In this document: one piece after another, positions 2,841 through 48,995 of the stretch | How positions within the stretch are numbered: the stretch's first letter is position 1 | How the letters are laid out: each line of letters opens with the position of its first letter | Made by a program: the position numbers and the translations under genes | Source: a virus | DNA length: 50,027 bases | IMG/VR virus record: IMGVR_UViG_3300035698_008270 | Span: 1 to 50,027 of that record | Reading direction: 5' to 3' (one strand) | The notes under the pieces: model-generated | What the model was told of the DNA's origin: nothing | What the model saw: only the letters and a program-made list of their open reading frames with translations | Database searches by the model: none

Positions 2841-2889
2841 ATTTAACTCCGGCTGCCTATTCCAGCAGAACTATAGCCAGACCACCGGC
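2841..2889 (-). promoter_or_regulatory. 49-bp gap with CTATAG motif, possible late promoter
   Basis: This is one of only five gaps longer than 45 bases. On the coding strand it carries GGCTATAG at 2878-2871, about 30 bases before the orf18 ATG, followed by the ribosome site GGAG. Similar CTAT motifs occur in three of the other four longer gaps. The orf17 stop codon sits in the loop of a tiny CGGC/GCCG hairpin, too small to call a terminator. A promoter role is an inference from motif recurrence only. Confidence 0.3.
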
Positions 2890-6588: not shown

Positions 6589-6598
6589 CTTCGTCTCC

Positions 6599-25311: not shown

Positions 25312-25313
25312 TC
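25285..25313 (-). terminator. Terminator-like hairpin after orf9
   Basis: GAGCGG (25313-25308) pairs perfectly with CCGCTC (25290-25285). After a T/T mismatch, ACG pairs with CGT inside, leaving a nine-base loop. The stem begins within the orf9 stop codon and is followed by TTTG. The U-tract is only three bases, so it is at best a weak terminator or attenuator. Confidence 0.35.
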
Positions 25314-26199
25314 ACCCCATCGGGTCACGGTTCTCCGAAGGCACATCGGGGAAGGTGAACTTGAGGAAGGGCACCTTGTCCTCGTTGGCGACGTAGGATG
25401 TGACCTTCCCACCAGCGTCCGTCTCAAAGAGCAGCTCGTACATATCCTGAATCAAGATTTGGACTCGCTGGTCCGGGTCAAAGCGGTCTCGGTCGAAGTC
25501 CTGCAAGCCCGTGAGCGCTCCTCCAAAGGCTTGCTGCAAGACCACATCGCGCTCCTTTTCGAGCTGCTCGTACAGGTCGCTGAGCTTTATGATTTGCCAC
25601 TCCAGGTTCAAGAGGCGTTCCTTGATGTCCTGGTTCGCCCAGCTCCGAATCTGGTGCATGTACCGGACCACCGAATTGCTGTCGAAGCCACCCCGGTCAG
25701 CACGCCCTCCCTGTCGAGCGGGGAAGTAGCCATCCGCTCGGATGTACCCGCCTGGATAGCCCCCGTATCCTGTGTCCTTGCCCTGGATAGCCTGAGGCTC
25801 ATTGTATTCTGCGGACATGGGGGCGATGACACCACCATGCGGGCTGGTCTGGATGATGGTGAGGTTCCCCTCGCCGTCATCTGCAACGATTTCCGTGCTG
25901 TCCGGACGCAAGAAGGAGGAGATGTCCAGGGGATTGCCTCCCTTCGCCACATAGGCCCGGACGAGCCGACCTAGCGAGGACCCCTTCGTGACCGAGAATC
26001 CGATTCTCTGCTCAGTCGCTTTCGAGCTGCCATCCTGTTCTACCATCAGGTAAGTCACGGTCACGAGACCGATGCGCTCCATTTCTGCCGAGATGACGTC
26101 AATCCGCGATGAGATGGAGCGTCGGTTCCGCAGGAGCCAGCTTGAAATGGCTCGAAAGTACCCCACGGGCCACACACCCATTTTGGAGAAAGAGGGCAC
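25312..26199 (-). CDS. orf9, 295-aa virion protein of unknown function
   Basis: The start is GTG at 26199. A strong GGAGG seven bases before it, directly after the orf8 TAG, supports GTG over the internal ATG six codons later. The N-terminus (FRAISSWLLRNRRSISSRIDV) is a basic amphipathic helix. The middle (about residues 148-180) is Gly/Tyr/Arg-rich (GYGGYPGGYIRADGYF) and probably flexible. Residues about 188-232 are helical and likely coiled coil (IKERLLNLEWQIIKLSDLYEQ). I do not recognise a family. It lies between large orf8 and gp25-like orf10 in an unbroken structural run, so a baseplate component or assembly factor is the reasonable guess. Confidence 0.85.
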   Translation of the reverse strand: MPSFSKMGVWPVGYFRAISSWLLRNRRSISSRIDVISAEMERIGLVTVTYLMVEQDGSSKATEQRIGFSVTKGSSLGRLVRAYVAKGGNPLDISSFLRPDSTEIVADDGEGNLTIIQTSPHGGVIAPMSAEYNEPQAIQGKDTGYGGYPGGYIRADGYFPARQGGRADRGGFDSNSVVRYMHQIRSWANQDIKERLLNLEWQIIKLSDLYEQLEKERDVVLQQAFGGALTGLQDFDRDRFDPDQRVQILIQDMYELLFETDAGGKVTSYVANEDKVPFLKFTFPDVPSENRDPMG

Positions 26200-26208
26200 A
26201 GCTACCTC

Positions 26209-29115
26209 CTAGAGCACATCCGGCTCGGGGTCAGGTGGTACTGGGGTTCCTTCAGGGATACCCTCAATTCCGATGGCGTCCTGAAGCTCCCCTTCTTCCG
26301 ACAGATATCCGTCTGTGTCGTCTCCAGGGCTCACCGCGAGGAACGTCTTGATGACGTCCATCACTACCGGAGGCACCCCCGCCATAGGGAACACCACCGC
26401 GATACCCGCTCCGTAAGCCAGAGCAGAGTCAGGTGGCTTGTTCTCTGCTGTCACGAGGTCCGACAGTACACCGCCCGTCCCGTCGGAGAGCAGCATCAGG
26501 GCGGAGCACTTGGGAATCTGGAAGCTGTAGCCCAGTATTTTCTGGAGCAGCGAGTTGATGCGCTGGATGAGCTGCTGCAACTCGACGATGCGGGCTTCGA
26601 GGTACTCGATGAACTGCCGAATGGTGTCCACGACCGATTCCACGGTCTTGGATATGGCATTGAGCCATTCGTAGAGCTGAGCGAGGAAATCCTCGACGCC
26701 AGGGACGGTATCGAGGAAGCGGAGAGCTATCCAATCACCGTCCTTCGGTGAGCGTCGCAACGCAGAAGCAGCGACGCTCAGGGCCACGGCAGACTCCGTG
26801 AACAGTATCCCGCCTTCGTAGTCCGCGAACAATCCTCGGCAGTACCGGATGCCTGCCTTGTTGATTTCTACAGTGACGGCTCCCGGATGGACGTCTTCGA
26901 GGATGTCCGCGCCCCAGAAGAATACCGGGGACATATCCGCCGAACCCACTGTTTTCTGCCTTGCCGCCAGTGCCGTGAGCGCAGCTCGGTCCTCCTCGGG
27001 GACGAGGATGGACCCGTCCTTTCGGACGCATTTCTCGTACACAACACGAAGAGAAGGAGGAAGGTCGAGGAGGAAGGTTTCAGCACCTTCGCTGGACACT
27101 TCCATTGTCGCCTTGAACTGCGGGTCGTCCCCGCCAACCACGCCTTCCTGCATCTGAGGCAGTCGGCTAGCAATCAAGCCGTCTACGGAAAACATCATGC
27201 CTACGGAGGCTTCGACCGGCCCGATGCAGTACGGGTTGAGCGCCAATCCCGAGAAAGGCTGGGCTCCTGGCTTCCCCTCGTCCGTATCGAGGGACTCCAG
27301 AATGGTGGCAGCAGCCGTGTCCTCATCCACGTTCAGCAAGCCCTCCTCAGGGAGGATGTCCACCCACTTCACCTTTCGAAGATTCTCAGTGGCTCTCACG
27401 ACATAGGCTTCGGTGTCGGGCATCGGGCCTGTCTTCGTATACAGGTCGTGAACTGTGACCTGCACCCACTTCAGGATATGGCTCCGCATCTTCTCCGGGT
27501 CTTCACCCCTGGTGCGCATCTTCTCCGCGTAGTCCTTGTAGATGAACTCGGTAAGGTGCCTGAAATCTTCCAGGCCACACCTCTCCAGCGCCAAATCAGG
27601 AACGATGAACTCGTTGTCCTGGATAGCCTTGAACCTGCTCTCGGAGAACAGGTCTTTGAGGGTGTCGATGGGGGACAGGTCGGGGCGGCTCAGGAGGAGC
27701 ACCACAAGGGCTATCTGGACCGCTTCGAGGTACTTCTTGGTGTTAACGTTGGGGAACGTCACAACCGTTGGCCCCGAGAAGGGGCTGAGCGAACTCGAAT
27801 CGAAGTCAGCCTGCGTCGTCGTAACCTCCACCGCCTCCGTGGTGTCTCCCTTCAAGGGGAGGTACTTCGAGAAATCGTACTGGTACGCCTCGGCTGCGGC
27901 CAACTCCTGCGTCGTCGAGGCGACCCGAACGAACAGGGTGTGAGCGGGACCATCGTCTTTGAGCACCATCTTCCCGTTTTCAGGAGTCAGGGAAGCGTAG
28001 CGAGGCATCTCTTCGGTAAGGAGGAACACAGAAAGGGACTCGCCCCAAATCTGGCCCAAGGGTGCTTCGACGTAGAACACCCTCTGGAAGTAGTAGATGT
28101 CCGCCCCGTCTTCTCCAGCCCCCGCATCCTTCAGGTCCTCCAACGGAATGGGCTGTCCTGCTTGAGTGATGCCGTAAATGCGTGTCTTGCCGTCGATGAT
28201 TTGGCCGTCGGAGTCCACCGCGCTGTTGTATTCCAGGTCTCCCGGCAGGTTGAAGGTGTCCGCCCCGCCGTACAGGACCAGAGGGACCCCCTTATCCAGG
28301 ACCGGGCCAGACTCTCGGGGCTGTTGCCCGTCTATCTTGCCCGCGTTGGCCTGCGGTCGGTCGTAGACCAGGGGGATGCCGTCCTTGAAGGACGAGACCG
28401 TCACAACGAAGCCCTTGGGAGGCGACATGGGGAAGGGGTTGAAGGTGTTTTCTCTTGCTGGAGGCGTCGCCTCCCACTTCACCCGAGCCACGTTGGGAGG
28501 CGTGCCGTCCCCCTTCTTGAAGAAAGCCCCCAAGTCCTCTGCCTGGAAGATGGAGGCAGCATCAGAACCGTAAACGACGTCGGTGATGATAGGGGTCGGC
28601 AAACCACCGGGGACGTTGTACTCCTGCTGGAAGAACTTGAGCATCTTGAGGACGAAAGCGACGAGCTTCTGGATGTCGGAGATGTCCACCGAAAGGTAGA
28701 AGAAAAAGCTCAGCACAGGCGTCAGGCTCGACACATCCGGTCGGGTGGGGTCCGTCGTATCCGTCAGACGAGCAATCATCCGGCGCTCGTACTCTTGGTA
28801 CCCCCCGCGAAGCTCCTTGTAGGGGCACTGGAGCAAGGGCCAGTCTCCCGTGATGTACAGGCCCAACTGTCTCAGGTCACGGAGAAGGGCGTTTATCTCC
28901 GCGAGAAGGGCTTTCACAATAGCTTGAATCGGGTCGATGTACCCGACGAGGAACCCCTTGGCGATGTTCAGGATGGACAACATGATGTCGAGAACGGTGA
29001 TGAGCAGCTCGGCCACCGTGTTGATGGCTTCTCGCGTGTCCTCCAACCAATCCGGCACCCCGAGGGTGAGCGTACCCCACTGCCCTGTGGCGCTATCGAC
29101 ATTCACATCGACCAT
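26209..29115 (-). CDS. orf8, 968-aa virion protein with helical ends
   Basis: The start is ATG at 29115, overlapping the orf7 stop by one base (TGATG), with GGGGG upstream. A longer in-frame reading would cover orf7 and is rejected. Residues 19-110 are strongly hydrophobic and helical (INTVAELLITVLDIMLSILNIA, IQAIVKALLAEINALL). Residues about 850-905 form a second helical block (SVVDTIRQFIEYLEARI, ELQQLIQRINSLLQKIL). Between them is mixed alpha/beta sequence with one notable Cys (LERCGLEDF) and several small beta segments. There is no clean transmembrane helix because charged residues interrupt each block; bundle-forming or membrane-touching helices are both possible. No family is recognised. 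A long open frame exists on the opposite strand here but reads as a shadow. Confidence 0.88.
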   Translation of the reverse strand: MVDVNVDSATGQWGTLTLGVPDWLEDTREAINTVAELLITVLDIMLSILNIAKGFLVGYIDPIQAIVKALLAEINALLRDLRQLGLYITGDWPLLQCPYKELRGGYQEYERRMIARLTDTTDPTRPDVSSLTPVLSFFFYLSVDISDIQKLVAFVLKMLKFFQQEYNVPGGLPTPIITDVVYGSDAASIFQAEDLGAFFKKGDGTPPNVARVKWEATPPARENTFNPFPMSPPKGFVVTVSSFKDGIPLVYDRPQANAGKIDGQQPRESGPVLDKGVPLVLYGGADTFNLPGDLEYNSAVDSDGQIIDGKTRIYGITQAGQPIPLEDLKDAGAGEDGADIYYFQRVFYVEAPLGQIWGESLSVFLLTEEMPRYASLTPENGKMVLKDDGPAHTLFVRVASTTQELAAAEAYQYDFSKYLPLKGDTTEAVEVTTTQADFDSSSLSPFSGPTVVTFPNVNTKKYLEAVQIALVVLLLSRPDLSPIDTLKDLFSESRFKAIQDNEFIVPDLALERCGLEDFRHLTEFIYKDYAEKMRTRGEDPEKMRSHILKWVQVTVHDLYTKTGPMPDTEAYVVRATENLRKVKWVDILPEEGLLNVDEDTAAATILESLDTDEGKPGAQPFSGLALNPYCIGPVEASVGMMFSVDGLIASRLPQMQEGVVGGDDPQFKATMEVSSEGAETFLLDLPPSLRVVYEKCVRKDGSILVPEEDRAALTALAARQKTVGSADMSPVFFWGADILEDVHPGAVTVEINKAGIRYCRGLFADYEGGILFTESAVALSVAASALRRSPKDGDWIALRFLDTVPGVEDFLAQLYEWLNAISKTVESVVDTIRQFIEYLEARIVELQQLIQRINSLLQKILGYSFQIPKCSALMLLSDGTGGVLSDLVTAENKPPDSALAYGAGIAVVFPMAGVPPVVMDVIKTFLAVSPGDDTDGYLSEEGELQDAIGIEGIPEGTPVPPDPEPDVL

Positions 29116-29357
29116 CAGGAGCCCCCACCAAACTTCAATCGGGAGACTTGCTCTCTGAGCCCCACCAGCATTTTCTGGTCCCCGTCCACGATGCCTTGCA
29201 AGTAGTCCCGCAGCACGACCAAGGAGTCCCTCTGCTGGTCCACGAAGGGAGACCGTACTGTTTGGGCTTGTGTCTTGCCCCAAGTGCCGAGATTGACTTC
29301 CTTTTCGTCGAGAAGTTCTCTCACCTTCTCAGAGATGTTCGGGGTCTTGTCACTCAT
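29115..29357 (-). CDS. orf7, 80-aa small helical protein
   Basis: ATG at 29357 overlaps the end of giant orf6 by eight bases. GAGGG lies eight bases before it, inside orf6. The protein is polar and mostly helical (ISEKVRELLDEKEV, DSLVVLRDYLQGIVDGDQKML) and ends in GGGS. It has no Cys, signal or membrane segment. It is the only gene under 200 residues in the window, and is tied by overlap to both the giant upstream gene and orf8. Small helical proteins in this position can be assembly factors or linkers, but I do not recognise this one and give no function. Confidence 0.8.
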   Translation of the reverse strand: MSDKTPNISEKVRELLDEKEVNLGTWGKTQAQTVRSPFVDQQRDSLVVLRDYLQGIVDGDQKMLVGLREQVSRLKFGGGS

Positions 29358-32300
29358 CGCCAATTCCCTCTGTCGTCTCTTGCAGCACCAGCAACCGCTC
29401 ACGTTCTGCTAGTCGCTCCGGCAGCTCCTCATCGAACCGCTTGATGCCCGCCAGCGTGCCGAGAATCAGATGAACTCGGTAGGCCAACCAGACATACCGT
29501 ACCGTCCGGAAGCGGTCGGACTCGTCGAGCACGAGGTCTATCCGCTCAGGGAGCACAGGCCGCACGTCACTCCCCCCACTCACGTCGTCGGTATAGGCCG
29601 TGTAAGGCGTATCTCCTGGGCCTGACAACTGCATGGCGTAGTCGCCAGCCGAGGTCAGGTGGTCGAGCCTCAGGTCGTATATCCAGAAGCGACGGTCGAG
29701 AAGCGAGAGGCAGCTCCGGTTGTTCAGGTACGGAACGGTGCCCAGCTCTCCGAGCATCTCCTTGATGAACTCGTTGTCCAGGACGCCAATCCCAGACTCG
29801 GGGTCGGCCAGAAGACCGAGGTCTTCGATATGGTTGTCCCGCTGGAAGACGAAGTAGGACCCCGACTTGCCCCCACGCAGCAGTCCTCCCAGCATCTCAA
29901 TGAGGGACAGCATCCTCTCGCGCATCGTGAGCACGAGGTCGATGGCCTCCTCCGAGAAGAGGCCGGAGGGGCGAATGACTCGGTAGCTGAAGGGCCGGAT
30001 GGAGTAGTTGTTCCCCTCGTAGCTCTCTGTCACAGGGTCACGCTTGTCCGTCGGGCGCAGGTCCATCTGCCCCTCGAAATCGCCGGAGAGCCCTGAATCC
30101 GAGATGGTCGGGTAGATGGCGTACTCACGTTCCGGGGTCGTCCCCTCAGCGAACGTCACCCAGTCAGTGTTCGTGATGCCTCCTGCAAAGGTCGAGATGG
30201 GGCTAATCTCCAAGTAGGGGGTCGCATCGTTGACGACCTTCGTGACTCGGTAGAAGCCCCGGTTGTCGTCCAGCTCGTTGGCTCTGCCTATCTCGAACTC
30301 CGCCCGGTCCGTAACTCCGAGGTCCCCAATCGGACGCTGGCCTCTCTCGGGGGTGACTGGCAGCTTGCCCCATTGGAACAGAGCCCCTGCGGGGTCGATG
30401 ACGATGATGTCCCCTGCCCGGACGCCCTTCGTGATGAAGGAGCCGCTCATGGCGTCGTCGAACATCTTGTTGACGACATCGGCGTAGGTGCCTGTCTCAA
30501 CGTAGCCGCCCAGCTCGTTCTCCCAGTCGGCTTCTGTGCGGTAGACCTCACGGTCCGTAATGGCGTCGAGGAGCTGCTCGTTGGATTGCTCCAACGGTAC
30601 GGGGACCTCGCGGAGCCAAATCTCGAAGCGCATTCCACCGTCGGCTTCCATCTGGGCCTTGGTGCGTGCCGTGATGCCCGGCATGGCGAGCTTGATTTCG
30701 CCCGGACCCATGACCCCCAGAACCTCACACTGCTCGATGAGCGTGCCGTCCGCGTCGAGAAGCCGGAAGAGGCTGCCTGCCGTGATGTTCACGTCCGGGT
30801 CGTCGAAGGTGCCGAGATTGGTCCCCGTGTAGGTCTCCCCGTCATTCCAAGCGTCAGGTGCCTTCGGATGACTCGGGTAGGCGTAGCTGGCATTCCAGTC
30901 CATCGTGAAGCCGTCCGCCTCAACGATGGCCCGCTGCCGGTCGTTCTGCGTGTACAGAGTGACGCGCCCACGTCGAATCTCGTAAGCGAATCGCAGCGCC
31001 TTGAACGGGTCTGCCGCTTCTTCCAGGGCCTTGTGCCAGCGCCGGACGCGCCGGACGGTAAAGCTCACACCCTCAGGCTCGTCGATGACCGAAGAGGTGT
31101 ACTCCTCCGTGTTCCGCATCCAGCTTTCGCGGTCCCAGTCGTCCGCAGCCGCCAACGGGTCTACCAGCGCGTGCCCGGACTCGTCCACGACGCGAGCGTG
31201 GTCCGCCACAAGATTGAGTGCCGAGCGCGGGAAGGACGGCTCCAAGAAGATGCCCGCCTGCGCCCAGTAGCCAGGATTGCCACTGCCGTCGTCCAGAAGC
31301 ATCGGGGTTGAAGGCAAGAGGCACTGAGGGGCAGTACACGCTCCCGGCGCACCTCCGTTGGAGTTTATGGAGTCCCAGACCGCCGCGAGAGCCACGGGGG
31401 CTGGGGTTTCAAAACCAAGAGTGTCCACGACATTGTGGTAGACCGGCGTGTTCTGGTCCGCCAAGAACGTGTCGCTCATGTCGATGACGAGACGGTCGTA
31501 GAGGTTGACGTACCCAGGCAAGACCGGGTTCGCTGTGGTCCCGATTTCTCTGGGAGGCCCTACCACTGACCCATCGAACGTCTGAGCAGTCCCTCCGATG
31601 CTCGCGGGCGAGCCCAAGGTCAACCACCGGAACCCACGCGGAGAACCACCCCATTCGTAGGAGGGAGGAGGCACCGCCTTAGGAGCGAACTCGTACCCAA
31701 CGCAGTTGTTGTGGGGCAGCCCTTGTTCCCCGCCTATCTGGACAGGGAAACGACTCATTCCTGCGACCCAAAGCGGTCGTCCTGCGATGAGGTCGCTGAC
31801 AGTCTGAGCCAACAGCGGGGCGCCTGCCAAGTCGGCATAATTCGTGAGTTCCCACTGAGCCGGGGTTGCTCCGGCTGCATTGATGGTCGCCACGATGGCT
31901 CCCGCTGCGTAGGTCGCGGCAACGGTGGACCCCAGTGCCGTGCTACTGAGGAGAATGTACAGGGTGTCCCCAACGGCAAGGCTGGCCCCTTCTTCTGTCT
32001 CCGGAGCATGGTCGAGAGTGAGCATGTCTGTGCCCACGTCGAACTCTTCCACCTTGGGGAACACGAAGGGGCACCAGCCGGTGTTGATGCCCGCCAGCGT
32101 CCCCAGAGTCACTTCGCGGTAGCCGTTGCCGGAGTTGTCATCCACAGCATGGCGCACGAGGTACGTCCCCACGAAGGGCGAAGCCTCAAAGGCGGGAGCG
32201 TCCGAAGCGTCGATGACCAGAATGTCCCCGCTCTCGACCTCGTTCGTCGGAATTGAGGGCTCCAGGATACGATTGTCTACCACCCGCTCCAGGCCCGCGA

Positions 32301-35300
32301 TGAGGTTCGTGTTGAAGAAGCTGGCAGCCTTTCCAGTCCCCTGGCAAATGAACGTGGCCTGCCCCTCACCATAGTCGTTCGAGGGCATGGCAGAGAAGGT
32401 CACGTCGGAAGCGGTGATGGGGGTGTTGTTGTGCCCCTCGAAAGCCATCATCTTCACTGAACCGTAGTACAGCGCACCATCCCAGTCCCCGGCTTCAGTC
32501 GTCCCGTCTCTGGAAAGGAAGGTGAAGGGGTCGGGCAGACCACCGTCGAGACCGTTGGAATAGCGGTTGACCTTGCTGCTGTAGGACGCGCCTGCGGGAG
32601 TTGGGCAGGTGACTTGTTCCACCACGAGTTTCGCGTCGAGCACCAACTGGGGCTCCGGTGCGGGGTCGATGGGGTGCGTAAACCCTCGTGTCTTGGCCAT
32701 GTGGAGGTCGAGGTCTTCTCGGAAAGTCAGGCGGTCCGATTCCACCTGAGCCGTCGTAGAAGCACCCTCTGTGGTGTCGATGCTGAACGTGAACTCTTGC
32801 CCGTACAGCGTGCGGAACACGCCCGGTGCGACAACGCCGAAGTCATAGGGCATGAACCACTGGTTAAGAGCCCCAGGAGTCGAAGGCACAGCACTCCACG
32901 GGAACCAGCCGATGACCGGGATAATCACCTGCATCTCGTTGATAGTCCCGTAAGGGGCGGCAGTTACACCAAACTGAGGAATAGCAGGGAGGACAATGGG
33001 GACCTTGGGGAGCAAGAGCGTCTCATCCTCGTCCTCCGCCCACACTTCTCCCCCGTAGAAGTGAATGATGAGCGCGACGAGCCCACCCGTTTCATTGGGG
33101 TGCGGCGCATTGGGCTCGTAGGGAGGTGCCGTAACCGGCCACGTCGTCACCTGGACATCTGGGCGCGCGATAATCTTGATGCGGATGTGGTTCTTCACGT
33201 TAGCCACGATGTCGTTGAGGTTCCCAGCCCCAGGAACACCTGAGTTCATGGCGAATCCGCCCATCGAGCTGAAGTCGAGGACCGTCGTGGTGGCATCCTC
33301 ATAGACCTCAATGCCCTGCGGTGGCGTCGGTTCCGCCTGCGGGTCAGGCGGGTACATCCCTGAGGCATCGAGCCACGCCATCGCATCCTCGAAATCGTAC
33401 TGGATGCCGTTGCCCAAAGTCGTCGGCGTCACGAAGCGAGGAGGCTCGATAGTCTTAGGGCTGCCGCTGGAGTCCACCGCCCCGACCGTGTGGATGCCCA
33501 GAGGCCCTTCTGTGGTGAAGGGGCTCGGGTTGTCCGTCTGGTACAGCACCACGTCGAAGGGGCGGAGAGGCCGCTCCCCGAGGTCGGTCGGCGCAAGGTC
33601 TTGGGTGGTCAGCAAGGCTGCTGGGGTGGTTGAGGGGTCGGTCTCCACCTCGCCCGCGTTGTCCAGAATCTCGTCCGGGTAGACAGCCTGCGGCGGAGCG
33701 TTCCCGTCCACAGCCACCAGCACACGAGGGAAGCTGGTCCCAATCTCGTCGAAGCGGTCCAACTCCGTGTTGCCCGCCAGCATGTACGGGAGCTGGTAGT
33801 CCCCTGAGTCGTCCGCCGTAAACCCCGAGAGAGCTGGGATGCGGAGAGGGTTCTGTCCCTTGAAGAAGAACTCTACAGGACCTTCCAGCGTGCTCATGGG
33901 CTCGGGAGGCTTCTGACCCGTCCACTCCCGCAGACCAAAGGCGAAGGGGTCCGTGATTGACGGGAGCGTCCGGTCAAGGACACACCCATCAGCGTTCACC
34001 GAAAGGTCGAACCCGTCTCGGAAGATGGCGAGGCCGTTTGCCATCGCCTGCATGTCCTCGAACTCAGGCGGGTCATTGAACGGGGTGGAAGCCGAACCGA
34101 TAGGCGGCCCCACGAACACTGTGTCCCCCTGCTCAGCCGGGAACTCGTCCAACGAGATGCCTGTGTCCGAGCTAGTCCCTACCAGCACAGCTCCCGAGCT
34201 GAGGATGTCGTTGCCATCGGCGTCTGCGAGGGTGATAACGCACCCGTACAGCACCTCCTTGACGAAGACCCCCGTGAAAGTGGGGCTGCCGTACACGTCG
34301 ATGCCGCCGTCGCGGTAGTACAGCTCATAGGTCGTCCCATCGGGACGGCCCCAGCGGAGCTGGTCGCCCTCCTGGAATCCCGGAACTGCCAGAGCGTAGT
34401 CGCCGCTCAGAGCATCAGGGACCTCTCCTCCTTGTGAGAGGAGCTGTGCGTTATCCGGGTAGCTCGTGTCCGGGTCCACCGGGACATCCCGCAGAAGGGC
34501 CGGGAACGCGATGATGACTGGGCGTTCGAGAAGTGCCGAAGTCGGTGAGAAAGCATCCAAGGGGAGCCCGTCAGGCCGGTAGCCCCACACACGCCCCCGC
34601 GCCAGTCGTCTGCCTAGCTCCGCCGAAGCAACCCCTGTGATTTCTCCCACGACCGGATTGTAGAGCTGCCCGATGGTGCTTCCTGTGGTTCTCTGCGTTT
34701 CCCCGTCGATAACCTGTCCCCAGGTGTAGACCCCATTCTCGTCGATATCGAGGTCTGCTCCGACCCCAGGATAGGTCATGAAGAACGCCTGCGTCAGCGT
34801 TGGGTAAAGGCGGGAGAAGCGATGCCTCTCTCCCATGCTGGCGTACATGCCCAAGGACGTGTACTTGAAGTACGGGAAGGTGCTTGTCCGGCCCACTTCA
34901 GGGGACCCGAGCCTCAGGAACACCCTATCGTCTACGTCGTTCTGGACGAGCTGCCCTTGTCGAGAAGTGAACGACCGAATCCGATTCACGCTGGGAAGAT
35001 TGCCGTCAATCACCCCACCGGAAATGGAAGCTGACAACGGGTCCACCACCCTGTCCGTTTCGAGGTAGGTGATGTCGAGGTCCGTGCGCTCTTCATTGCA
35101 CACCTCGGCCCAGACGTTCCGGGGGTTCAGGGTCCCCGAAATGGCGTCCTCATATCCGGGCGTGGGCCACTCCTTATCGTGACCCACGAAGAAGCGGAAC
35201 TTGCCGTCCCGGTCCCCGATAAAGCCGCCTGAGATGGTCTCGTTGACCTGCTCGAACGCCACAATGGTCTGGTTGTAGAAGTCCAGGAACGTCCGGGCTG

Positions 35301-38300
35301 CTCGGTCCTTGTCCAGGAGGTGCTTGCGCTCCCCGAGGAGGCCGAGACGACCCTTCTCCCAGTTCTCTTCTCCAGCCCCAGCCGTCTGAGGCGCACCACT
35401 CGCAGGCTGCTTCGAACTGATTTCCTGCACCGCTTCCTTGGCCGCCTCCCCCAAGAAGGAGGGGAGCGTGACCGACCGGAAGTAGAAGGTGTCCGGGTTG
35501 CGGAAGGAGAAGCTGCCCGCCAACAAAGCTCCGTAGAGGCCATTCTCTTCAGAAGGGGTGTCCACGTAGAGATAGCTGGCCGTGTAGCGCGGCGTGACCA
35601 CGACCCCATCCTGCATAAAGGGCTGGAGAGCCCTGATGCGGGTGAAGTACAGGCAGAGCGACTGACCGGCCCCCAGAGCGTCCTGCAAGGGCGGTAGAAG
35701 CTGGAAACTACCCGAGGTGGGGTCGAGGCTGTACTCGGTCCCCTCGGCCAGAGAGCGCCCTGGAAGCTCGTTGCCGTCGGTATCCGTCTCCCCGTAGAGA
35801 ACCAGCTCATAGGGCTCTTCAGTCAGCACAGGCCCCGCACCCAGGAAGTCTCGCGTGGAAGGCGGGTAGATGGGACGGTACGAGAGCTTGACCGTGGGCG
35901 GGTCCGAGACAGAGAAGCCGGAGCGGAACCCAGACGTGACCGTCAGCATCGTCCTGGTGCCATCGTCGTTCAGCGTGACCTCAGAGAGAGTGAAGGGCTG
36001 CCCGCCAATCTCGAAGTGGTGGCCCGGCTGCGCGAAGGCCGTCAAGTCTCCTTGGAACACGATGGTCTTCTGGCCTCGGCTCACAGGCTCGAAGGGGAAA
36101 ACACTCGTGTCGATTTCGGACATGAACCCGAGAGGTGCATTCGTCGGTGTCGGGCTGCCCCCTGTCGGCGTGACCTCGGTAGCCACGGCCTCAGAAGTGA
36201 TGACCGTGATGACATCGTTGCCCGGAGCACGGGTGCCGACCTCTGTGGTCGTCGTGGGGAAGATTCCAATGCCGGTCACATTCCCCTTGCTGTTGCCGTC
36301 CGTGTCCGTGTACGGAGGATAGTAGGTGAGCTTCGTGACGTAGAAGCTCTCCTGTCCGATACGGAACATTTGGCCTAGCTCGAACTCGGAAGTCCGGTCC
36401 CCCCAGACACCAAACTCGTCCACGCCCTCCTTGACGAAGAACGGAGGACGGTAAACCGGCTTCATGCTTGACTCGTAGGCCCGCTCTCCGCCCTGTGCTT
36501 CGAACACCGCGTAGGACAGCGTAACGGGGATGTAGTCCGCGACCGTCTTGCTGACGAAGACGATGCGGCCCTTCCCACCCAACTCCACCGGATAATCCAC
36601 GATGTAGTCGGTGGTCCCGAAGTTCTGCATCCTCGGACCGATGTACACCGTGGGGTCGATACGCTGGTCGATGGTCGTCGAGCCCGAACCGAACGTGTAG
36701 GTGTTGGGAGAAATCCGAACAGCCTGCTCCTCGCGGAGGTAGACCGGGAGGAACTCCGTGAGCTGGTCGCCTTCCTTGCGCCCCTCGCTCGTCGCCTCCC
36801 AATACGACACTTCCACCGAAGAACCCTTGGGGACAGGAGAGCTGAAAGTGAAGGCTCCCAGCAACGGACTCAACGACACGTCCTTGCGGTCCTCCGTGAC
36901 CATCTGCTCGACGAAGTACGCTTGAGTGCCCGCGAACTGGGCTTTGTCCGCCGCCGAGAAGTTCAGGTCCCCGTTGACCGGGTTGTACTCGACTTCGAGA
37001 GCCGTGAGGTCCGCAGCGGGTTGGAACTCCTCGACGTACCAGACGGCTGCCCCGGCAAAACTGCTCAGAAGATTCGTCCCGAACTTCAGCCGCCCCACGG
37101 GAGAGGCCCCAGAAGCCACCGTGAGGTACTCGATGCCGTCCCCGTTGCCTGGGTTCGCGCTGAACGTAGAGACGCCCGTGAGCCCCGTGCCCTGCTGGTA
37201 CAAGGCGGTGCCCACGCGGACAGAGAAGGAGCCGGAAGCGAAGCGAGCACTCCCCGACGGAACTTCGAGAACCTCATTGGCAAGAGGACCCAATTTCAAC
37301 TGAGTGAGTGCGATGAGGGTCGCCGTGTTCACCGTCGTCGCCGGGACGAGCCCATACCGAATGTTCATCAACCGCCCACTGCTCAGAGCGGTTGCCATGT
37401 TGGCGTGCGGCGGCGTGCCCTCTACCGGTGACAGCAAGAAGACCTGGAAAGGCTCCGTGGACAGATGGTTGAACCCCTTGTAGGTGATGTCTGCGACCAC
37501 TGAGGGGTCGTACACCTCGCGGGTGTAGCCTTCGAACAGCTCCCAGACGACTGGCGTGGTGGCCGATGCGGTGAAGGTCGGGGTGACGCGGAGCTGCGTC
37601 TGCCCGAGAACCTCGACGACTTGGTGAGAGCCTTGGACGTCCCCTGAACCAATCTTCAAACGGTAGCCCGGAAGCACCGCACTGAAGTCGGCTTCTGCGT
37701 CGGTGAAGGTGCCGGTGCCCGCCTGCATGTATCCCTGCGCACCGGTAGACACCCGTGAACCGAAGCGCTCGATGAGCTGGGCGTTGCCCGGACCGCCTCC
37801 CAGAGGAAGCACGTAGTCCTCTTCAGAGTCCTGGAACACGCCGCCTTCACCATTTTCTGAGATGTACAGGCCACCCCCGATGCCTGGAGCGCCAAGCATG
37901 GATTCTGGAGACACAGCGGCATGTCCCAGAGCCAGGGTCGTCGTCATGTTCTCGACAGACCCCTCTACAGCTTCCCGAGACACCCAGTCGAACTTGCTCT
38001 GTCCGAAGTGGTGGATGATGTCCTGGTAGTGCCGTAGGGGCTTGTTGATGACCCGGACATAGATGCCGTCGATGGTCGTGGTTTGGATGCTGAAAAACAC
38101 CCCCTCGTCGTAGCCCGCGATGTCCTGCAAGGGCGGGTAGTCAAGGAAGAAGAACGGAGCAGCCGCCACCGACTGAGACAGGACCGTGTTCTCCAGGCGC
38201 TCGCGGTCTCGGATGTCGGGAATCGCCTTGGAACGGTCGAGGTTGACCGGGCTACGGAACAAGCCAAGAGCAGCTCCCGAATCAGGCAGCCAGTTGACCC

Positions 38301-40635
38301 TGCCCTCGACGGCCCGCCAACCGGGCAAGAAGCCCAGAGCGGTCGCTCCAGAGAGGTCCTTCACGTTGCCTTTGCCCCAACCGATTTCAACCGACCGCTC
38401 CCAAGGAGCTGGCATCTCTACCGACTCGATGACCACCCGCCCGTTCTGGGCGTAGACCGACCCTGCGGGAAGTGCTGGCGTCGCGTTGGCCGCCATGTCC
38501 ACCGTGACTTCTTCGGGGGTGTAGAAGCTCTCTGCCGTCGGTGCGGTCCACTCATAGACTGTCCCGTCGATGGCGAAGTAGAAGACCTCATCCTCCTCGA
38601 ACCGGAAGATGTCCCGATTGCGGCTCACCAGACGAGCCCGCTCAGTGTAGGTCGCCGGAATCATCGTGGACTGGAGGAAGTAGAGGAACTCGTCATCCCC
38701 TGCCCAGTCCCGCAAGTCGTCCCGGCTCAGCATCACGCGAGAACCCGTGGTCCCCATCTCCCGAGCGATGTAGGCGTCTCCCTTCTTGACCTTGTAGGAG
38801 CGAGAGGGGAGGTCGGCTTCCCGGTCCACCACGAAGATGTTTGTCACCGCCCCTTTCTTCGAGAAGATGAAGGTGTCGCCCACGTCGTCCGATACACGGC
38901 GCACTCGCCCAGTGTTGGGAGAGGTCGAGTCATCTCCGCCCGGACGAACACCTGCTTCGACCCCCAACACAGACGGGACAGCACCCGTGCCGTCGGGTGC
39001 ATCCAAAATCCCGGACTTGCCCAGGCCCCGGTACAGGTTCGCTCCTGTCCAGTCTCTCGGGAGAGTCACCGCGTCCGGGACGTAGAAGGCATTGGAAGCG
39101 GTCGTGGCCGGGTCCCCTGCGCTATCGAGGAGCGGCACCGGCTCTTTGGTGGGCTGCGCCACTCGGTTGAGCGCCACACCGTCGTAGACCACGTCCTCTC
39201 CCAGAAAGTGCTTATTGAAGAGGGAGGAGTCCGGATTCGACTTGGCGATGTCCGCCGCCGACAGGAGCAGGCGTCCCGTCGATAGGGAGACCACAACCTC
39301 ACCCTCTGCCGGTGGGTTGCTCCCCGATGCCGACAGCAGCGCAGTATCGTTTTCCACGAGGGTCGGGTTCAGGTAGCGTCGGTTGCCCAGCTTGAGCATC
39401 GGAAAGTCGTCGGGTCCGGGGATGGGCGCAATGTACAGCGGGTGGATGTCCGCGTCGCGCAACGAGCCCACAAGGCCATCCGAGGACTCAGAGAAGTTCT
39501 TGTAGGCGTACCAAATGGTCTTGCCCGCGTGCAGCGTTGCAAAGGCCGGGTTGAACTCCAGGATGCCGTTGGTCTGCCCCAGAACCGCGTTGGATGTGGG
39601 GTCCTGCGTGAAGTCGAAGCCTCCCGCGACTTCGCTGTTTGGCCGCACCCGCACCAGCGGCACAGGCACACTGTCGAAAGCGCCCGGCGACGACCCCACC
39701 CGGAGCATCGCATAGGTGTCCGAGTCATTGCTGCCCGGCAGGTAAGCGTTGATGGGGAGGTTCTTCAGCTTGGGGGTGAGGCGGTAGCTCTCGTCGAGCA
39801 AGAGAGTCCCGACTTCGACCACCCCGGAGCCCTTGTAGGGCTGCCATTTCTGAGTCTTACCGCTCCAGCCGAAACGCTGCTCGTAGCGGTCATTGCGGGA
39901 CCACCAGAACTTGGCCGGGGACACCGTGAACCGAACCTCCTGGATAGTGTCGCCTCGGTCGATGGAGACGCCTCCATCCAGCGCCACCAGAACTTGGTCC
40001 CCGGAACCCTCAGGGGTGAAGCCTTCACGAGTCAGGTTGACGATGCCTGCATCGGCGTCCTGGTCGGGCACCGTGGGTAGAAGGACCATGTAGGGGTTGG
40101 TCCCGTCACGGCCCGCTGAAGGGTCGTCCGGGTCCGTCCAACCCTGGTCGTCGTAGTCGTCCACGTCCCCACGCGAGATGACGACCGCGCTGATGTTGCC
40201 GATGGAGCGCTCCCCGTCGTCTCGAACAACGATACGGCTCGACCCGTCGAGGAAGTACCCGTAGCTGTTGGGGTGCGGGAAGCCTGGGACGAGGGGCTCA
40301 GGGGTGCTGTCCGTGACCTGTAGTTCGCCCTCGGGAATGGTGCCGTAGCCTTGTTCTGTCCACCAGTCGGAGTCATTGACACACGCGAGCTGAGACGTGT
40401 TGGCTGCCCACACGAGATATTCCACAGGGGACGAGCCCGGAGCTTCGAGGACAGCGGCACGATACTGGTCAGCATAGGCGTCCACGAAAAGGGGGGACTG
40501 AGGAGCCAGAGAGTAGGCTTGTGGAATAGCACGGGCATCCCGCACCACACCCGTCAGAGGCTCACCTGTCGTCTGCGCGTTCGTAGGGGCGATACGCGGT
40601 GGCCGGAGCACTCGTCCATCGAAGCTGAATCCCAT
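29350..40635 (-). CDS. orf6, 3,761-aa giant virion/baseplate protein
   Basis: An uninterrupted frame of 3,762 codons, 11.3 kb. The start chosen is ATG at 40635 (MGFSFDGRVL), one base after the orf5 stop (TGACATG). Upstream in-frame codons would overlap orf5 and read as a shadow. The ribosome site is weak (GGTGGTG), which suggests coupling to orf5. The protein is mainly beta-rich, Asp/Gly/Pro/Thr-rich and low in Cys. Recurring beta hairpins occur near residues 358, 455, 1217 and 1633 (for example STGRLLLSAADI and NPVNGDLNFSAADK). GD-type beta modules appear near 972-1022, 1525-1567, 2797-2845 and 3400-3481. A helical, possibly coiled-coil stretch spans about 1725-1800, and the last 230 residues are helical. 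It lies between spike and gp25-like genes, so a baseplate scaffold or very long fibre is likely. No enzyme motif was recognised. Confidence 0.9.
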   Translation of the reverse strand: MGFSFDGRVLRPPRIAPTNAQTTGEPLTGVVRDARAIPQAYSLAPQSPLFVDAYADQYRAAVLEAPGSSPVEYLVWAANTSQLACVNDSDWWTEQGYGTIPEGELQVTDSTPEPLVPGFPHPNSYGYFLDGSSRIVVRDDGERSIGNISAVVISRGDVDDYDDQGWTDPDDPSAGRDGTNPYMVLLPTVPDQDADAGIVNLTREGFTPEGSGDQVLVALDGGVSIDRGDTIQEVRFTVSPAKFWWSRNDRYEQRFGWSGKTQKWQPYKGSGVVEVGTLLLDESYRLTPKLKNLPINAYLPGSNDSDTYAMLRVGSSPGAFDSVPVPLVRVRPNSEVAGGFDFTQDPTSNAVLGQTNGILEFNPAFATLHAGKTIWYAYKNFSESSDGLVGSLRDADIHPLYIAPIPGPDDFPMLKLGNRRYLNPTLVENDTALLSASGSNPPAEGEVVVSLSTGRLLLSAADIAKSNPDSSLFNKHFLGEDVVYDGVALNRVAQPTKEPVPLLDSAGDPATTASNAFYVPDAVTLPRDWTGANLYRGLGKSGILDAPDGTGAVPSVLGVEAGVRPGGDDSTSPNTGRVRRVSDDVGDTFIFSKKGAVTNIFVVDREADLPSRSYKVKKGDAYIAREMGTTGSRVMLSRDDLRDWAGDDEFLYFLQSTMIPATYTERARLVSRNRDIFRFEEDEVFYFAIDGTVYEWTAPTAESFYTPEEVTVDMAANATPALPAGSVYAQNGRVVIESVEMPAPWERSVEIGWGKGNVKDLSGATALGFLPGWRAVEGRVNWLPDSGAALGLFRSPVNLDRSKAIPDIRDRERLENTVLSQSVAAAPFFFLDYPPLQDIAGYDEGVFFSIQTTTIDGIYVRVINKPLRHYQDIIHHFGQSKFDWVSREAVEGSVENMTTTLALGHAAVSPESMLGAPGIGGGLYISENGEGGVFQDSEEDYVLPLGGGPGNAQLIERFGSRVSTGAQGYMQAGTGTFTDAEADFSAVLPGYRLKIGSGDVQGSHQVVEVLGQTQLRVTPTFTASATTPVVWELFEGYTREVYDPSVVADITYKGFNHLSTEPFQVFLLSPVEGTPPHANMATALSSGRLMNIRYGLVPATTVNTATLIALTQLKLGPLANEVLEVPSGSARFASGSFSVRVGTALYQQGTGLTGVSTFSANPGNGDGIEYLTVASGASPVGRLKFGTNLLSSFAGAAVWYVEEFQPAADLTALEVEYNPVNGDLNFSAADKAQFAGTQAYFVEQMVTEDRKDVSLSPLLGAFTFSSPVPKGSSVEVSYWEATSEGRKEGDQLTEFLPVYLREEQAVRISPNTYTFGSGSTTIDQRIDPTVYIGPRMQNFGTTDYIVDYPVELGGKGRIVFVSKTVADYIPVTLSYAVFEAQGGERAYESSMKPVYRPPFFVKEGVDEFGVWGDRTSEFELGQMFRIGQESFYVTKLTYYPPYTDTDGNSKGNVTGIGIFPTTTTEVGTRAPGNDVITVITSEAVATEVTPTGGSPTPTNAPLGFMSEIDTSVFPFEPVSRGQKTIVFQGDLTAFAQPGHHFEIGGQPFTLSEVTLNDDGTRTMLTVTSGFRSGFSVSDPPTVKLSYRPIYPPSTRDFLGAGPVLTEEPYELVLYGETDTDGNELPGRSLAEGTEYSLDPTSGSFQLLPPLQDALGAGQSLCLYFTRIRALQPFMQDGVVVTPRYTASYLYVDTPSEENGLYGALLAGSFSFRNPDTFYFRSVTLPSFLGEAAKEAVQEISSKQPASGAPQTAGAGEENWEKGRLGLLGERKHLLDKDRAARTFLDFYNQTIVAFEQVNETISGGFIGDRDGKFRFFVGHDKEWPTPGYEDAISGTLNPRNVWAEVCNEERTDLDITYLETDRVVDPLSASISGGVIDGNLPSVNRIRSFTSRQGQLVQNDVDDRVFLRLGSPEVGRTSTFPYFKYTSLGMYASMGERHRFSRLYPTLTQAFFMTYPGVGADLDIDENGVYTWGQVIDGETQRTTGSTIGQLYNPVVGEITGVASAELGRRLARGRVWGYRPDGLPLDAFSPTSALLERPVIIAFPALLRDVPVDPDTSYPDNAQLLSQGGEVPDALSGDYALAVPGFQEGDQLRWGRPDGTTYELYYRDGGIDVYGSPTFTGVFVKEVLYGCVITLADADGNDILSSGAVLVGTSSDTGISLDEFPAEQGDTVFVGPPIGSASTPFNDPPEFEDMQAMANGLAIFRDGFDLSVNADGCVLDRTLPSITDPFAFGLREWTGQKPPEPMSTLEGPVEFFFKGQNPLRIPALSGFTADDSGDYQLPYMLAGNTELDRFDEIGTSFPRVLVAVDGNAPPQAVYPDEILDNAGEVETDPSTTPAALLTTQDLAPTDLGERPLRPFDVVLYQTDNPSPFTTEGPLGIHTVGAVDSSGSPKTIEPPRFVTPTTLGNGIQYDFEDAMAWLDASGMYPPDPQAEPTPPQGIEVYEDATTTVLDFSSMGGFAMNSGVPGAGNLNDIVANVKNHIRIKIIARPDVQVTTWPVTAPPYEPNAPHPNETGGLVALIIHFYGGEVWAEDEDETLLLPKVPIVLPAIPQFGVTAAPYGTINEMQVIIPVIGWFPWSAVPSTPGALNQWFMPYDFGVVAPGVFRTLYGQEFTFSIDTTEGASTTAQVESDRLTFREDLDLHMAKTRGFTHPIDPAPEPQLVLDAKLVVEQVTCPTPAGASYSSKVNRYSNGLDGGLPDPFTFLSRDGTTEAGDWDGALYYGSVKMMAFEGHNNTPITASDVTFSAMPSNDYGEGQATFICQGTGKAASFFNTNLIAGLERVVDNRILEPSIPTNEVESGDILVIDASDAPAFEASPFVGTYLVRHAVDDNSGNGYREVTLGTLAGINTGWCPFVFPKVEEFDVGTDMLTLDHAPETEEGASLAVGDTLYILLSSTALGSTVAATYAAGAIVATINAAGATPAQWELTNYADLAGAPLLAQTVSDLIAGRPLWVAGMSRFPVQIGGEQGLPHNNCVGYEFAPKAVPPPSYEWGGSPRGFRWLTLGSPASIGGTAQTFDGSVVGPPREIGTTANPVLPGYVNLYDRLVIDMSDTFLADQNTPVYHNVVDTLGFETPAPVALAAVWDSINSNGGAPGACTAPQCLLPSTPMLLDDGSGNPGYWAQAGIFLEPSFPRSALNLVADHARVVDESGHALVDPLAAADDWDRESWMRNTEEYTSSVIDEPEGVSFTVRRVRRWHKALEEAADPFKALRFAYEIRRGRVTLYTQNDRQRAIVEADGFTMDWNASYAYPSHPKAPDAWNDGETYTGTNLGTFDDPDVNITAGSLFRLLDADGTLIEQCEVLGVMGPGEIKLAMPGITARTKAQMEADGGMRFEIWLREVPVPLEQSNEQLLDAITDREVYRTEADWENELGGYVETGTYADVVNKMFDDAMSGSFITKGVRAGDIIVIDPAGALFQWGKLPVTPERGQRPIGDLGVTDRAEFEIGRANELDDNRGFYRVTKVVNDATPYLEISPISTFAGGITNTDWVTFAEGTTPEREYAIYPTISDSGLSGDFEGQMDLRPTDKRDPVTESYEGNNYSIRPFSYRVIRPSGLFSEEAIDLVLTMRERMLSLIEMLGGLLRGGKSGSYFVFQRDNHIEDLGLLADPESGIGVLDNEFIKEMLGELGTVPYLNNRSCLSLLDRRFWIYDLRLDHLTSAGDYAMQLSGPGDTPYTAYTDDVSGGSDVRPVLPERIDLVLDESDRFRTVRYVWLAYRVHLILGTLAGIKRFDEELPERLAERERLLVLQETTEGIGDE

Positions 40636-40636
40636 G

Positions 40637-41245
40637 TCACACCACCACACACGTCGTTGGTCCGCTTGCAGGAACCGGGGGAACCGTGGGGGTGCCGACG
40701 ACTGCACCCTGCCCAATACCCTGTAGCAATAGGCCCGCTATTCCGTTCCCCAGGCCCGTGGCCACTGAGGGAACCGAGAGCCCAGGCCCCAGAGACGAAG
40801 AAAGGCTCCCCATCAAGATACCTACGAGACTGGCCGGGTTCGCCGTCGTCACCTTCGATACATCGACCCCCACACCCACACCTGCTGCGGGACCTGCGTA
40901 CTGAGCCGAAGCCGTGAAAGCCATCGAGATACCGTTCGAGATGGCGATGGCGAGGCTCTGAGCCAAGACACCTGCCACTCCAGCGCCAGACAAGGCAGCC
41001 ATCAAGAGCCCTGGGTTCGGAGGCACAATGAGCTTCGAGGTGAAAGGAGCCACCGTCCCTACGCCCGCTGTCCCTACAGCCATCCCCGTGAGCCCGAGGT
41101 TCTGGGGCTGCCCCACGCCCCACACGAAGACACCTTGCGACACTCCCAGTGCGAGACGGTCGTAGTCCACGCCCCCGAAGGGATGAACTCCGGAGACTCG
41201 GGCGGAGAGCAAGGAGGAGTATAGGATGCCGGGGTTCAGTGCCAT
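40637..41245 (-). CDS. orf5, 202-aa Gly/Val-rich protein with three internal repeats
   Basis: ATG at 41245 follows AGGGGG and lies nine bases after the spike gene stop. The protein is rich in Gly, Val, Ala, Leu and Ser. Three repeats of about 60-70 residues can be aligned by eye. Each opens with NPG or NPA (residues 5, 77 and 136 begin the N-P pair within one residue). Each continues with LALGVSQGV, LAIAISNGI or VATGLGNGI (31, 98, 161) and ends with a Gly/Val-rich strand (54-67, 118-130, 176-190). I do not recognise a family. The repeats have no PAAR motif and only one Cys. Because it follows the trimeric spike gene directly, a three-fold tip or cap for the spike is an attractive but untested idea. 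Hydrophobic Gly-rich helices would also suit membrane contact. Confidence 0.87.
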   Translation of the reverse strand: MALNPGILYSSLLSARVSGVHPFGGVDYDRLALGVSQGVFVWGVGQPQNLGLTGMAVGTAGVGTVAPFTSKLIVPPNPGLLMAALSGAGVAGVLAQSLAIAISNGISMAFTASAQYAGPAAGVGVGVDVSKVTTANPASLVGILMGSLSSSLGPGLSVPSVATGLGNGIAGLLLQGIGQGAVVGTPTVPPVPASGPTTCVVV

Positions 41246-41254
41246 CCTATCCCC

Positions 41255-43687
41255 CTAACTACCGACATTATGGTTCTTAGCGCCGAGGCCGAAAGTAGCG
41301 AAGGGAAGCCCTGTCAGCGGGTCGAGGGAACCGGCACAAATGATGGGGCCTGCGTCTGGCCCTGTGATAGGGCCACCCAAGTAGACACCTGCACCGCCCC
41401 TGAGCGTGGCAAGCCCTGCGTCTGAGGACACCGTCACTCCAGCAAGCCCGGACAGCGAAGCTGCTCCTGCGGTCGCCCGGAGTGCCACGGTCCCTGCCTT
41501 GGCTGTGCCTGAGATGCCCGTCGGGCCGAGCTTCATTTCGGAGGCCACCGCCTTGGCCGTCCACGTCCCCAGCTTCACGTCGAAGACCATCTTACCAATG
41601 AGGATTTCGGTCGAGTGGTTGCCGAGGTAGAACTTCTCCTCACGGTCGCCTTGCGTGTACGTGACCTTCTCCGCCACGAGTCCGGGAATCGCTGGCGTGT
41701 AGGTCCTCTCGTGGAGCGGCCCCGAGGTGGGGAGCATCATCTTCGGACCGGCGTAGCTCTCCTGTGACCGACCATTGACCGTCTTCTGGAAGTTGTCCGT
41801 CGAGAGCGCCATGCTCTTGGTCGCGTTCAGGCTCATGTCCTGGTGAGCGTTCATGCGGATGGAGGACGCATTACCGTCGATGGTGTTGCCCTTGAGGAAC
41901 ACCGTCTTCACAGCCTTGATGCGTGCGCTGGTCCGGGCCTCAATGTTGACCGAGGCGAGCATGTCAGACTCCCCCGTCATCGCCGCGACCGTGCTCTCTA
42001 CTCCTTGCGGAGGTCCGCCACCGAAGATGTTGACCGGACCCTGTGACGAACTCAGCTCTGCGCTGGCCTTGCTCGACGTGCCGAGCTTCACATGCCCGTT
42101 CATCAGCAGTTCGAGCTGCCCGCCCAAACCGAGCTTCAGCCCACCGTGCATGTAGATTTCGGCGGACGGCTCTGTCGGAGGACCTCCAATCGACGCCTTG
42201 AGCTGTCCCTTCTTGTTGAAGGACATGAACGTCTCGGGACCACCTGCACCAACCGGGGGCTTCAGGCGGAACAAAGTGGCTGCCTGTTCCTCTATCGGAG
42301 TCCCACTGCCAGCCTCCCCCTGCTTCGGCAGGGAGATGGCCTCTAGGCGCGGAGAAGGAGTCGTCCCATTGTAGACTACCGCCCGAAGCGGAAGGCCGTA
42401 CTGGGGCCTTCCCGCTTGCGAGAAGGGGTCATTACCGATTACGGACCCCAGCACCCACTCGATGAAGGGCTGGTTCTTCGGGAGACCCGGCTGCGGTGTT
42501 GTGGGGTCACTCTCGGGCAAACGTTCCGAATCGAACCCATCTGTTTGCTCGGTTACGGGGAGGCGCCCATCGGAGGTGTGCGTCATCTCCAGGCGGTACT
42601 CTGTCAGCGTTCGAGCGTCCGGGTCAATGGTGGCGTTGTCTCGGCTCTGCATCGAAACCCGGTATATGGGCTTGCCACCGTAGATGGCGTCCGCATCCCA
42701 GCTATTCCCACTGACGAACCCCGACTCGTCGATGAACCCCCCGAGACGCAAGAACTCGTAGGGGTCGAGGTACGGGTCATCCCCCAAGAAACTGCGACCG
42801 AGATAGCCCTCCGCCTGGGTCTTGATGCCTTTTTGCAGGATGCGGGCCGGGGTCAAGAAGTCCGTGGGGGACTGGTAGTCCACCGGAAGCATCAGGTCGT
42901 CTACGGGCTCTCCCCCGAGTGCCTGCTGAGGCCCGGCCCAATCCCGGTAGTCCCCGACCATCGACGGGTGGAGGAGCTGGGCGTCGCGCTGGACCATGCC
43001 TGCATACACCCGCGCCCCGGCAAGAGCCTGGAAGCTCTGCAAGGCCCGCAACACAGCGGCTTGGTCCTGGTCCCTCAGGAGGAACTCGTTACCTCTCCGG
43101 TTGGCGAGCAAGGCGCTCTCGTCCAGAACAAGGTCGGCACCCTGCGAAGAGGAGCCCACCACGTTGCCCGGTTGGATATGCCGGAGCTTGTGCCGGATGC
43201 GGCTGTAGGACCCCTCCGAAGCCTGCTGGTCCACTGGGGAGTCCTGGTCAAACTCATCGACCTCGAACTCCGAAGTCAACAACCACTCGCGTCCGGGCCA
43301 GACACCGGGGACAACCCACGACAGAATCACCGGGGTCCGGGTCTGCTGCTGGTTCGTGCTCTCCTGAGGCATCCACCCCACGATGCACATATCCCCCTCT
43401 TCAGGCATGGAACCAAAAAAGTGCCGCGTCCCGGCGCCAGGGAAGGTCAGGGGAATGGGAACACGCTCGAACAAGTCGGAAGCCCCGGAGAGCGTCTGAA
43501 GGGTGGCGTAAAACTCCTCGTAGTCGATGGTGACGACCTTGGCGACGCCGAGTCCCCATCCCGACTCCGGACGCTGCTTCTTGAGGTCGGCCTTGGCCTT
43601 TGCCGAAGAGGTCCTCAGAGCCCCGCGCTGAATCGAGTCCAGGGTCGAGACAGTTCGTCTGCGAGAAGCGTTTTCAACATCAGCCAT
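41255..43687 (-). CDS. orf4, baseplate central spike (gp5 C-terminus/gpV-like)
   Basis: ATG at 43687 (MADVENASRR) has GAGG six bases before it; an in-frame ATG at 43702 is a weaker alternative. It overlaps the orf3 stop by eight bases. Residues about 45-135 look like the OB fold of spike proteins (GWGLGVAKVVTIDY, FFGSMPEEGDMCIVGW, TPVILSWVVPG). The C-terminal third is made of short alternating strands typical of an intertwined triple-stranded beta-helix (NIEARTSARIKAVKTVFLKG, MNAHQDMSLNATKSMAL). Known spikes of this type are trimers that pierce the cell envelope. There is no lysozyme domain between the two parts; the muralytic-like domain is in orf2 instead. The middle 300 residues are an unusual, unassigned insertion. 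At 810 residues it is longer than typical gpV. Confidence 0.88.
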   Translation of the reverse strand: MADVENASRRRTVSTLDSIQRGALRTSSAKAKADLKKQRPESGWGLGVAKVVTIDYEEFYATLQTLSGASDLFERVPIPLTFPGAGTRHFFGSMPEEGDMCIVGWMPQESTNQQQTRTPVILSWVVPGVWPGREWLLTSEFEVDEFDQDSPVDQQASEGSYSRIRHKLRHIQPGNVVGSSSQGADLVLDESALLANRRGNEFLLRDQDQAAVLRALQSFQALAGARVYAGMVQRDAQLLHPSMVGDYRDWAGPQQALGGEPVDDLMLPVDYQSPTDFLTPARILQKGIKTQAEGYLGRSFLGDDPYLDPYEFLRLGGFIDESGFVSGNSWDADAIYGGKPIYRVSMQSRDNATIDPDARTLTEYRLEMTHTSDGRLPVTEQTDGFDSERLPESDPTTPQPGLPKNQPFIEWVLGSVIGNDPFSQAGRPQYGLPLRAVVYNGTTPSPRLEAISLPKQGEAGSGTPIEEQAATLFRLKPPVGAGGPETFMSFNKKGQLKASIGGPPTEPSAEIYMHGGLKLGLGGQLELLMNGHVKLGTSSKASAELSSSQGPVNIFGGGPPQGVESTVAAMTGESDMLASVNIEARTSARIKAVKTVFLKGNTIDGNASSIRMNAHQDMSLNATKSMALSTDNFQKTVNGRSQESYAGPKMMLPTSGPLHERTYTPAIPGLVAEKVTYTQGDREEKFYLGNHSTEILIGKMVFDVKLGTWTAKAVASEMKLGPTGISGTAKAGTVALRATAGAASLSGLAGVTVSSDAGLATLRGGAGVYLGGPITGPDAGPIICAGSLDPLTGLPFATFGLGAKNHNVGS

Positions 43688-45893: not shown

Positions 45894-45895
45894 CG

Positions 45896-48994: not shown

Positions 48995-48995
48995 G

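Follow-up and report, generated by a model that had tools for sequence, protein, structure and literature searches.

The stretch of DNA analysed here, referred to as the window, is a 50,027-bp linear IMG/VR fragment of a contractile-tailed huge phage. Its minus strand carries a cluster of baseplate genes in which one exceptionally long gene, the giant, is embedded. Read along this strand, the order is p337, the hub (p1035 and p737), the spike, p202, the giant, g1024, orf295, gp25, gp6/J and gp453, followed by p654, p2044, p224, p1204 and p1275. The main features are the following:

43680 to 49003, minus strand: hub region, comprising p737 and p1035, the latter matching phage G gp185.
41255 to 43702, minus strand: probable tail spike (VgrG/gp5-like) of 815 aa, with matches to Phage_base_V, DUF2345 and VgrG (6sjl), all weak.
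40637 to 41245, minus strand: p202, a Gly/Ala-rich protein of the ~195 aa family, nearly always the nearest recognised upstream neighbour of the giant.
29350 to 40635, minus strand: the giant gene (3,761 aa, 407 kDa, pI 4.4), defined by its open frame and its homologues.
26209 to 29283, minus strand: g1024, nearly always the next recognised gene downstream of the giant.
25312 to 26199, minus strand: orf295, a 295 aa protein conserved in synteny.
24065 to 25258, minus strand: gp25/gpW-like sheath initiator (PF10934, phrog_975), homologous to phage G gp187 and Tunturi_5 gp242.
20542 to 24063, minus strand: gp6/J-like baseplate wedge protein of 1,173 aa (PF04865, E 2e-13; phrog_6).
19181 to 20542, minus strand: gp453, a probable wedge protein downstream of gp6, with homology to phage G gp189 in its N-terminal half (HHalign 98.8%).
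11017 to 17151, minus strand: p2044, which carries a ~60-residue module also found in the giant.

The giant frame extends over 11,286 bp, from an ATG at 40635, one base past the stop codon of p202, to a stop codon at 29352-29350. This start is favoured over an alternative upstream TTG at 40716, which would yield 3,788 aa, because the conserved N-terminal motif of the relatives, FxGxVLRxxR..N, begins at the ATG. In 40 dinucleotide-model windows of the same composition, the longest stop-free run had a mean of 325 codons and a maximum of 419; the GC content of the giant frame is 62/47/77% by codon position, and homologues retain an intact frame of similar size. The frame is neither chance nor artefact. 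The open frame of 11.3 kb and 3,761 residues reported in the initial annotation, which gave no strand, is thus confirmed and assigned to the minus strand, and its placement between spike and gp25 within a baseplate gene order also holds, with the refinement that the giant and gp25 are not adjacent, two genes for proteins of 1,024 and 295 aa lying between them.

That annotation lacked the observation that the giant is one member of a family in which some forms are half as long. A search of IMG/VR with gp6/J yielded 41 loci, and in the 31 gp6/J-bearing records examined the giant was present every time, as 30 homologues and one C-terminus at a contig edge. Searches with a long-form alignment (138 coding stretches, 80 kept) and a short-form alignment (12 loci) left 98 sequences after duplicate removal, i.e. 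about 98 distinct homologues from IMG/VR, to which is added one from LR745208.1, an uncultured phage of 485 kb. Relatives were found by the gp6/J and alignment queries, the giant alone, used as a peptide query against IMG/VR, having returned none; a scan of genome contigs with gp6/J gave no match. Complete long forms (3,376-4,024 aa) make up one clade, and are accompanied by mid (1,951-2,446 aa) and short (1,733-1,818 aa) forms, all of them colinear. In the gp6/J tree a branch with 100/99 support sets the long form apart from the rest, and mid forms (2.2-2.4 k residues, then 2.0 k) diverge earlier than the short clade, the outgroup branch being long. The short form lacks the equivalent of window residues roughly 100-240, 500-700, 1100-1250 and 2450-3350. 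Identity to the nearest relative is 69% for the giant and 75% for gp25 and gp6. In one relative, L096, the giant frame is split into overlapping ORFs (3-6056 and 6016-8016), through either a natural split or a sequencing frameshift. All members known to date come from a single broad clade of huge myophages, with member-bearing contigs reaching 536 kb.

The gene order around the giant is near-invariant across relatives, and consists of spike, ~195 aa protein, giant, ~1,000 aa partner, ~295 aa protein, gp25 and gp6/J. The p202 family was nearest upstream in 79/79 scored loci and g1024 next downstream in 80/81, some loci in both counts coming from the same contig. The giant is encoded in a cluster with gp25 and gp6, with a positional exception in LR745208.1. 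This phage, whose record is unannotated, encodes a full-length homologue of 3,642 aa, about 33-37% identical and followed by g1024 on the same strand, but ~26 kb separate the pair from gp25/gp6 (region 225000-274999), indicating that clustering of the giant with gp25 and gp6 is not obligatory. In this region gp25, gp6 and the genes that follow them are on the other strand, which amounts to a rearranged baseplate cluster. The length of g1024, a protein with coiled-coil-like helices, tracks that of the giant (825-1084 aa in the long clade vs 715-812 aa in mid and short forms). The tight p202-giant-g1024 linkage, the persistence of the pair in the rearranged genome and this parallel change in length suggest that the giant and g1024 are physical partners.

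As for the neighbours themselves, gp25 matches PF10934 with an E-value of 1.1e-3, a match too weak to reach the curated cut-off of that family, and phrog_975 with an E-value of 6e-5. The Baseplate_J match spans only about residues 424-960 of the 1,173-aa gp6/J, a protein far longer than P2 J (~300 aa). The hub proteins p1035 and p737 are separate ORFs in the window, with two bases between them and in different frames, and correspond in most long-clade relatives to one fused protein of ~1,400-1,950 aa; their separation could be a natural split or a contig frameshift.

Within the giant, four regions can be distinguished:

37534 to 37710, minus strand: ~60-residue beta module, residues 976-1034, detected with HHalign.
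35101 to 35433, minus strand: conserved core of the long, mid and short forms, residues 1735-1845, in which a coiled coil precedes GDRDGKFRF.
30586 to 33288, minus strand: long-clade-specific segment, residues ~2450-3350, absent from short forms.
29353 to 30474, minus strand: C-terminal region, residues ~3388-3761, common to short forms; a helical bundle ends the short form.

GDRDGKFRF, given here in the window version, is the motif with the highest conservation across the family, and residues 2450-3120, the first two thirds of the long-clade-specific segment, show the lowest conservation in the whole protein. The ~60-residue module (consensus in the giant FTD..DF....GY.L.I.SG...GS..V..V....L.V.P.F) recurs near residues 3276-3340 and 3457-3495 (HHalign 73-77%), and occurs in gp453 (residues 262-324, 95%) and p2044 (~839-919, 84%) as well, against a reversed-profile null of <=10% within the giant and <=4% for neighbours. 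No family name was found for this module, whose shared consensus across at least three tail-cluster proteins is LTD..F...G..L.I.SG...G.Y.V..V....L.V.P.F. Profile self-comparison revealed other repeats, pairing residues 1400-1465 with 1517-1573 (96%) and ~355-485 with ~1180-1240 (96%). AlphaFold2 models of window residues 2441-3600 (encoded by 29836-33315; pLDDT 87.6, pTM 0.77) and of short-form residues 534-1733 (core and C-terminus; pLDDT 88.1, pTM 0.59) are both mainly beta strand, a predicted chain of beta-sandwich modules. In the core model, helices that are read as a coiled coil precede GDRDGKFRF, and four helices make up the end of the short form. These slices and the internal repeats bear out the description of a modular, beta-rich protein with helical segments, while the suggestion of a long coiled fibre falls away, since coiled segments are short and the modelled bulk consists of beta domains. 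A tape measure protein, expected to be largely helical, was likewise rejected on account of the mostly beta-strand models.

Occurrence of the ~60-residue module in the giant, gp453 and p2044 supports a role for the giant in the baseplate, and this bears on two alternative explanations. The first is that the giant could serve as a baseplate assembly factor or molecular ruler rather than as a regular part of the virion, as would be consistent with its clade-specific length and its fixed position beside g1024 with the coiled-coil-like helices of the latter. Known assembly chaperones and tape measures are small or mostly helical, however, and a folded 400 kDa chain of beta domains resembles none of them; together with the module held in common with other baseplate-cluster proteins, this makes such a function most improbable. 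The second is that the giant could be virion-borne cargo, or an injected polyprotein with unrecognised enzymatic domains. Some phages do carry injected proteins of 3,000+ residues, and the models cover regions other than the N-terminal third; nevertheless, neither an enzyme family in Pfam, PHROGs or PDB nor a significant enzyme fold in the modelled regions was detected, and the baseplate location and shared module also argue against cargo, which we consider the remotest of the possibilities discussed here. The Pfam, PHROG and PDB searches likewise recovered no known non-structural family over the length of the giant; detection of such a family across most of it is what the initial annotation had named as refuting its interpretation.

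Sequence and profile searches of Pfam, PHROGs and PDB with the giant in fact returned nothing above chance, a 27-residue hint of phrog_6554 being dropped, and profiles of the long and short forms compared with all PDB chains did not retrieve T4 gp7, gp8, gp9, gp10 or gp11. No description of the family was found in literature searches either. Judged by these searches, the family, which has no Pfam or PHROG match, appears to be new, although the baseplate structural protein as a kind is already known. At E<=1e-3, Foldseek gave no PDB match for the long-form slice, and four PDB matches plus 136 in BFVD (predicted viral proteins) for the core slice; the PDB matches of the core slice include the JBD30 baseplate (E 9e-6) and the N-terminal part of CBA120 TSP4 (E 4.6e-4), the best PDB match being an algal flagellar glycoprotein. 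Matches are mainly to phage tail and structural proteins and superpose poorly as a whole (TM <0.2 for most), and we take them to reflect an architecture of tandem beta domains such as phage tail proteins have, and not homology. With regard to a wedge-protein fold, the two modelled slices gave only generic beta-domain phage tail matches, with no T4 baseplate chain among the matches listed.

The tailspike and tail-fibre matches, the tandem beta domains and the low conservation of residues 2450-3120 could also be taken to indicate a receptor-contacting arm or fibre, whose variable outer beta domains would bind or track the host surface. Yet the chain is conserved from end to end with no swapped tip, the long forms align colinearly, and neither a phage-fibre family nor a beta-helix repeat or chaperone domain was detected. 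Pfam and PHROGs gave no tail fibre or tailspike match, and the likeness to TSP4 concerns the fold of its N-terminal part only: TSP4 residues 1-335 match with a Foldseek probability of 0.99, and share with the giant and T4 gp10 an arrangement of beta domains in series, but the similarity is local (rmsd 17 over 225 columns) and there is no trimerisation evidence for the giant. TSP4 is itself linked to T4 gp10. Fibre-like genes are, moreover, located elsewhere, downstream of gp453, where p654 matches the tail-fibre family phrog_972. A receptor-contacting function is thus rather unlikely.

Bacillus phage G displays the same core order in gp184-gp189, with p337-like gp184, hub gp185, gp25-like gp187, gp6 gp188 (so identified by annotation and position only) and gp453-like gp189, so that the core partners gp25, gp6, gp453 and hub are conserved out to this phage. 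Between hub and gp25, however, phage G has a single 334 aa protein, gp186, in the position taken in the window by spike, p202, giant, g1024 and orf295, and HHalign detected no giant homologue in its baseplate cluster; the giant, g1024 and p202 therefore occupy a place unfilled in phage G. In Tunturi_5, HHalign likewise detected no giant counterpart, while the gp6 and gp25 controls matched at 99.95% and 97.9%; gp246 (1,970 aa), in a similar slot, was rejected as a distant homologue (probability <=6.5%). No equivalent of the giant was thus detected in these two clusters, whose gp25 and gp6 are related to those of the window; the initial annotation had noted that P2, Mu and T4-type orders have no comparable gene at this place.

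Taken with the gene order, the beta architecture and the lack of a non-structural family, these data lead us to favour, as the probable identity of the giant, a tail-baseplate structural protein, likely a peripheral wedge scaffold or arm; of the roles first proposed, scaffold or arm is thus retained as the best reading, in which the giant would work like T4 gp7 and gp10, to which it is unrelated by any test run here. T4 gp7 is a peripheral wedge protein of 119 kDa present in 6 copies (PMC3004832). Both would be single-chain, multi-domain proteins and the largest component of their baseplates, of a type absent from the simpler P2 and Mu baseplates, and both would link core ring and periphery, but the giant is 3.4 times larger, its gene lies elsewhere in the order, and it has no sequence or profile match to T4 baseplate chains in the PDB, with none among the listed Foldseek matches. 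As a virion component, one end of the giant would dock on the core ring of gp25, gp6/J and gp453, probably together with g1024, and the chain would run outward to link the ring to the fibre proteins. By analogy with gp7 and gp10, it could hold the baseplate in the ready state and pass the fibre signal to the sheath. The chain of the window clade is ~2,000 residues longer than the short forms, mainly through residues 2450-3350, and the first part of this segment probably forms an outward lobe, the fast-changing 2450-3120 stretch being probably exposed. More tentatively, one chain of ~0.4 MDa per wedge might do the work of five T4 peripheral proteins (gp7-gp11), its length having changed by gain or loss of modules within a clade of huge phages, with g1024 changing in step.

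If the copy number of T4 gp7 is borrowed, six copies of the giant would amount to 2.4 MDa, as compared to 9.8 MDa for the T4 sheath alone (138 x 71 kDa; PMC3004832, Table 1). Such a mass is large for a baseplate and small beside the T4 sheath and any capsid, and the giant is therefore unlikely to make up much of the virion mass, as had been presumed. The longest members, with 4,024 residues, would nonetheless, to our knowledge, count as some of the largest structural proteins in contractile tails. The family provides a marker gene for this clade of huge phages, and, with members that grade in length from 1.7 to 4.0 k residues along a resolved tree, it constitutes a natural series for the evolution of the baseplate periphery, which allows one to ask why huge phages need a bigger one.
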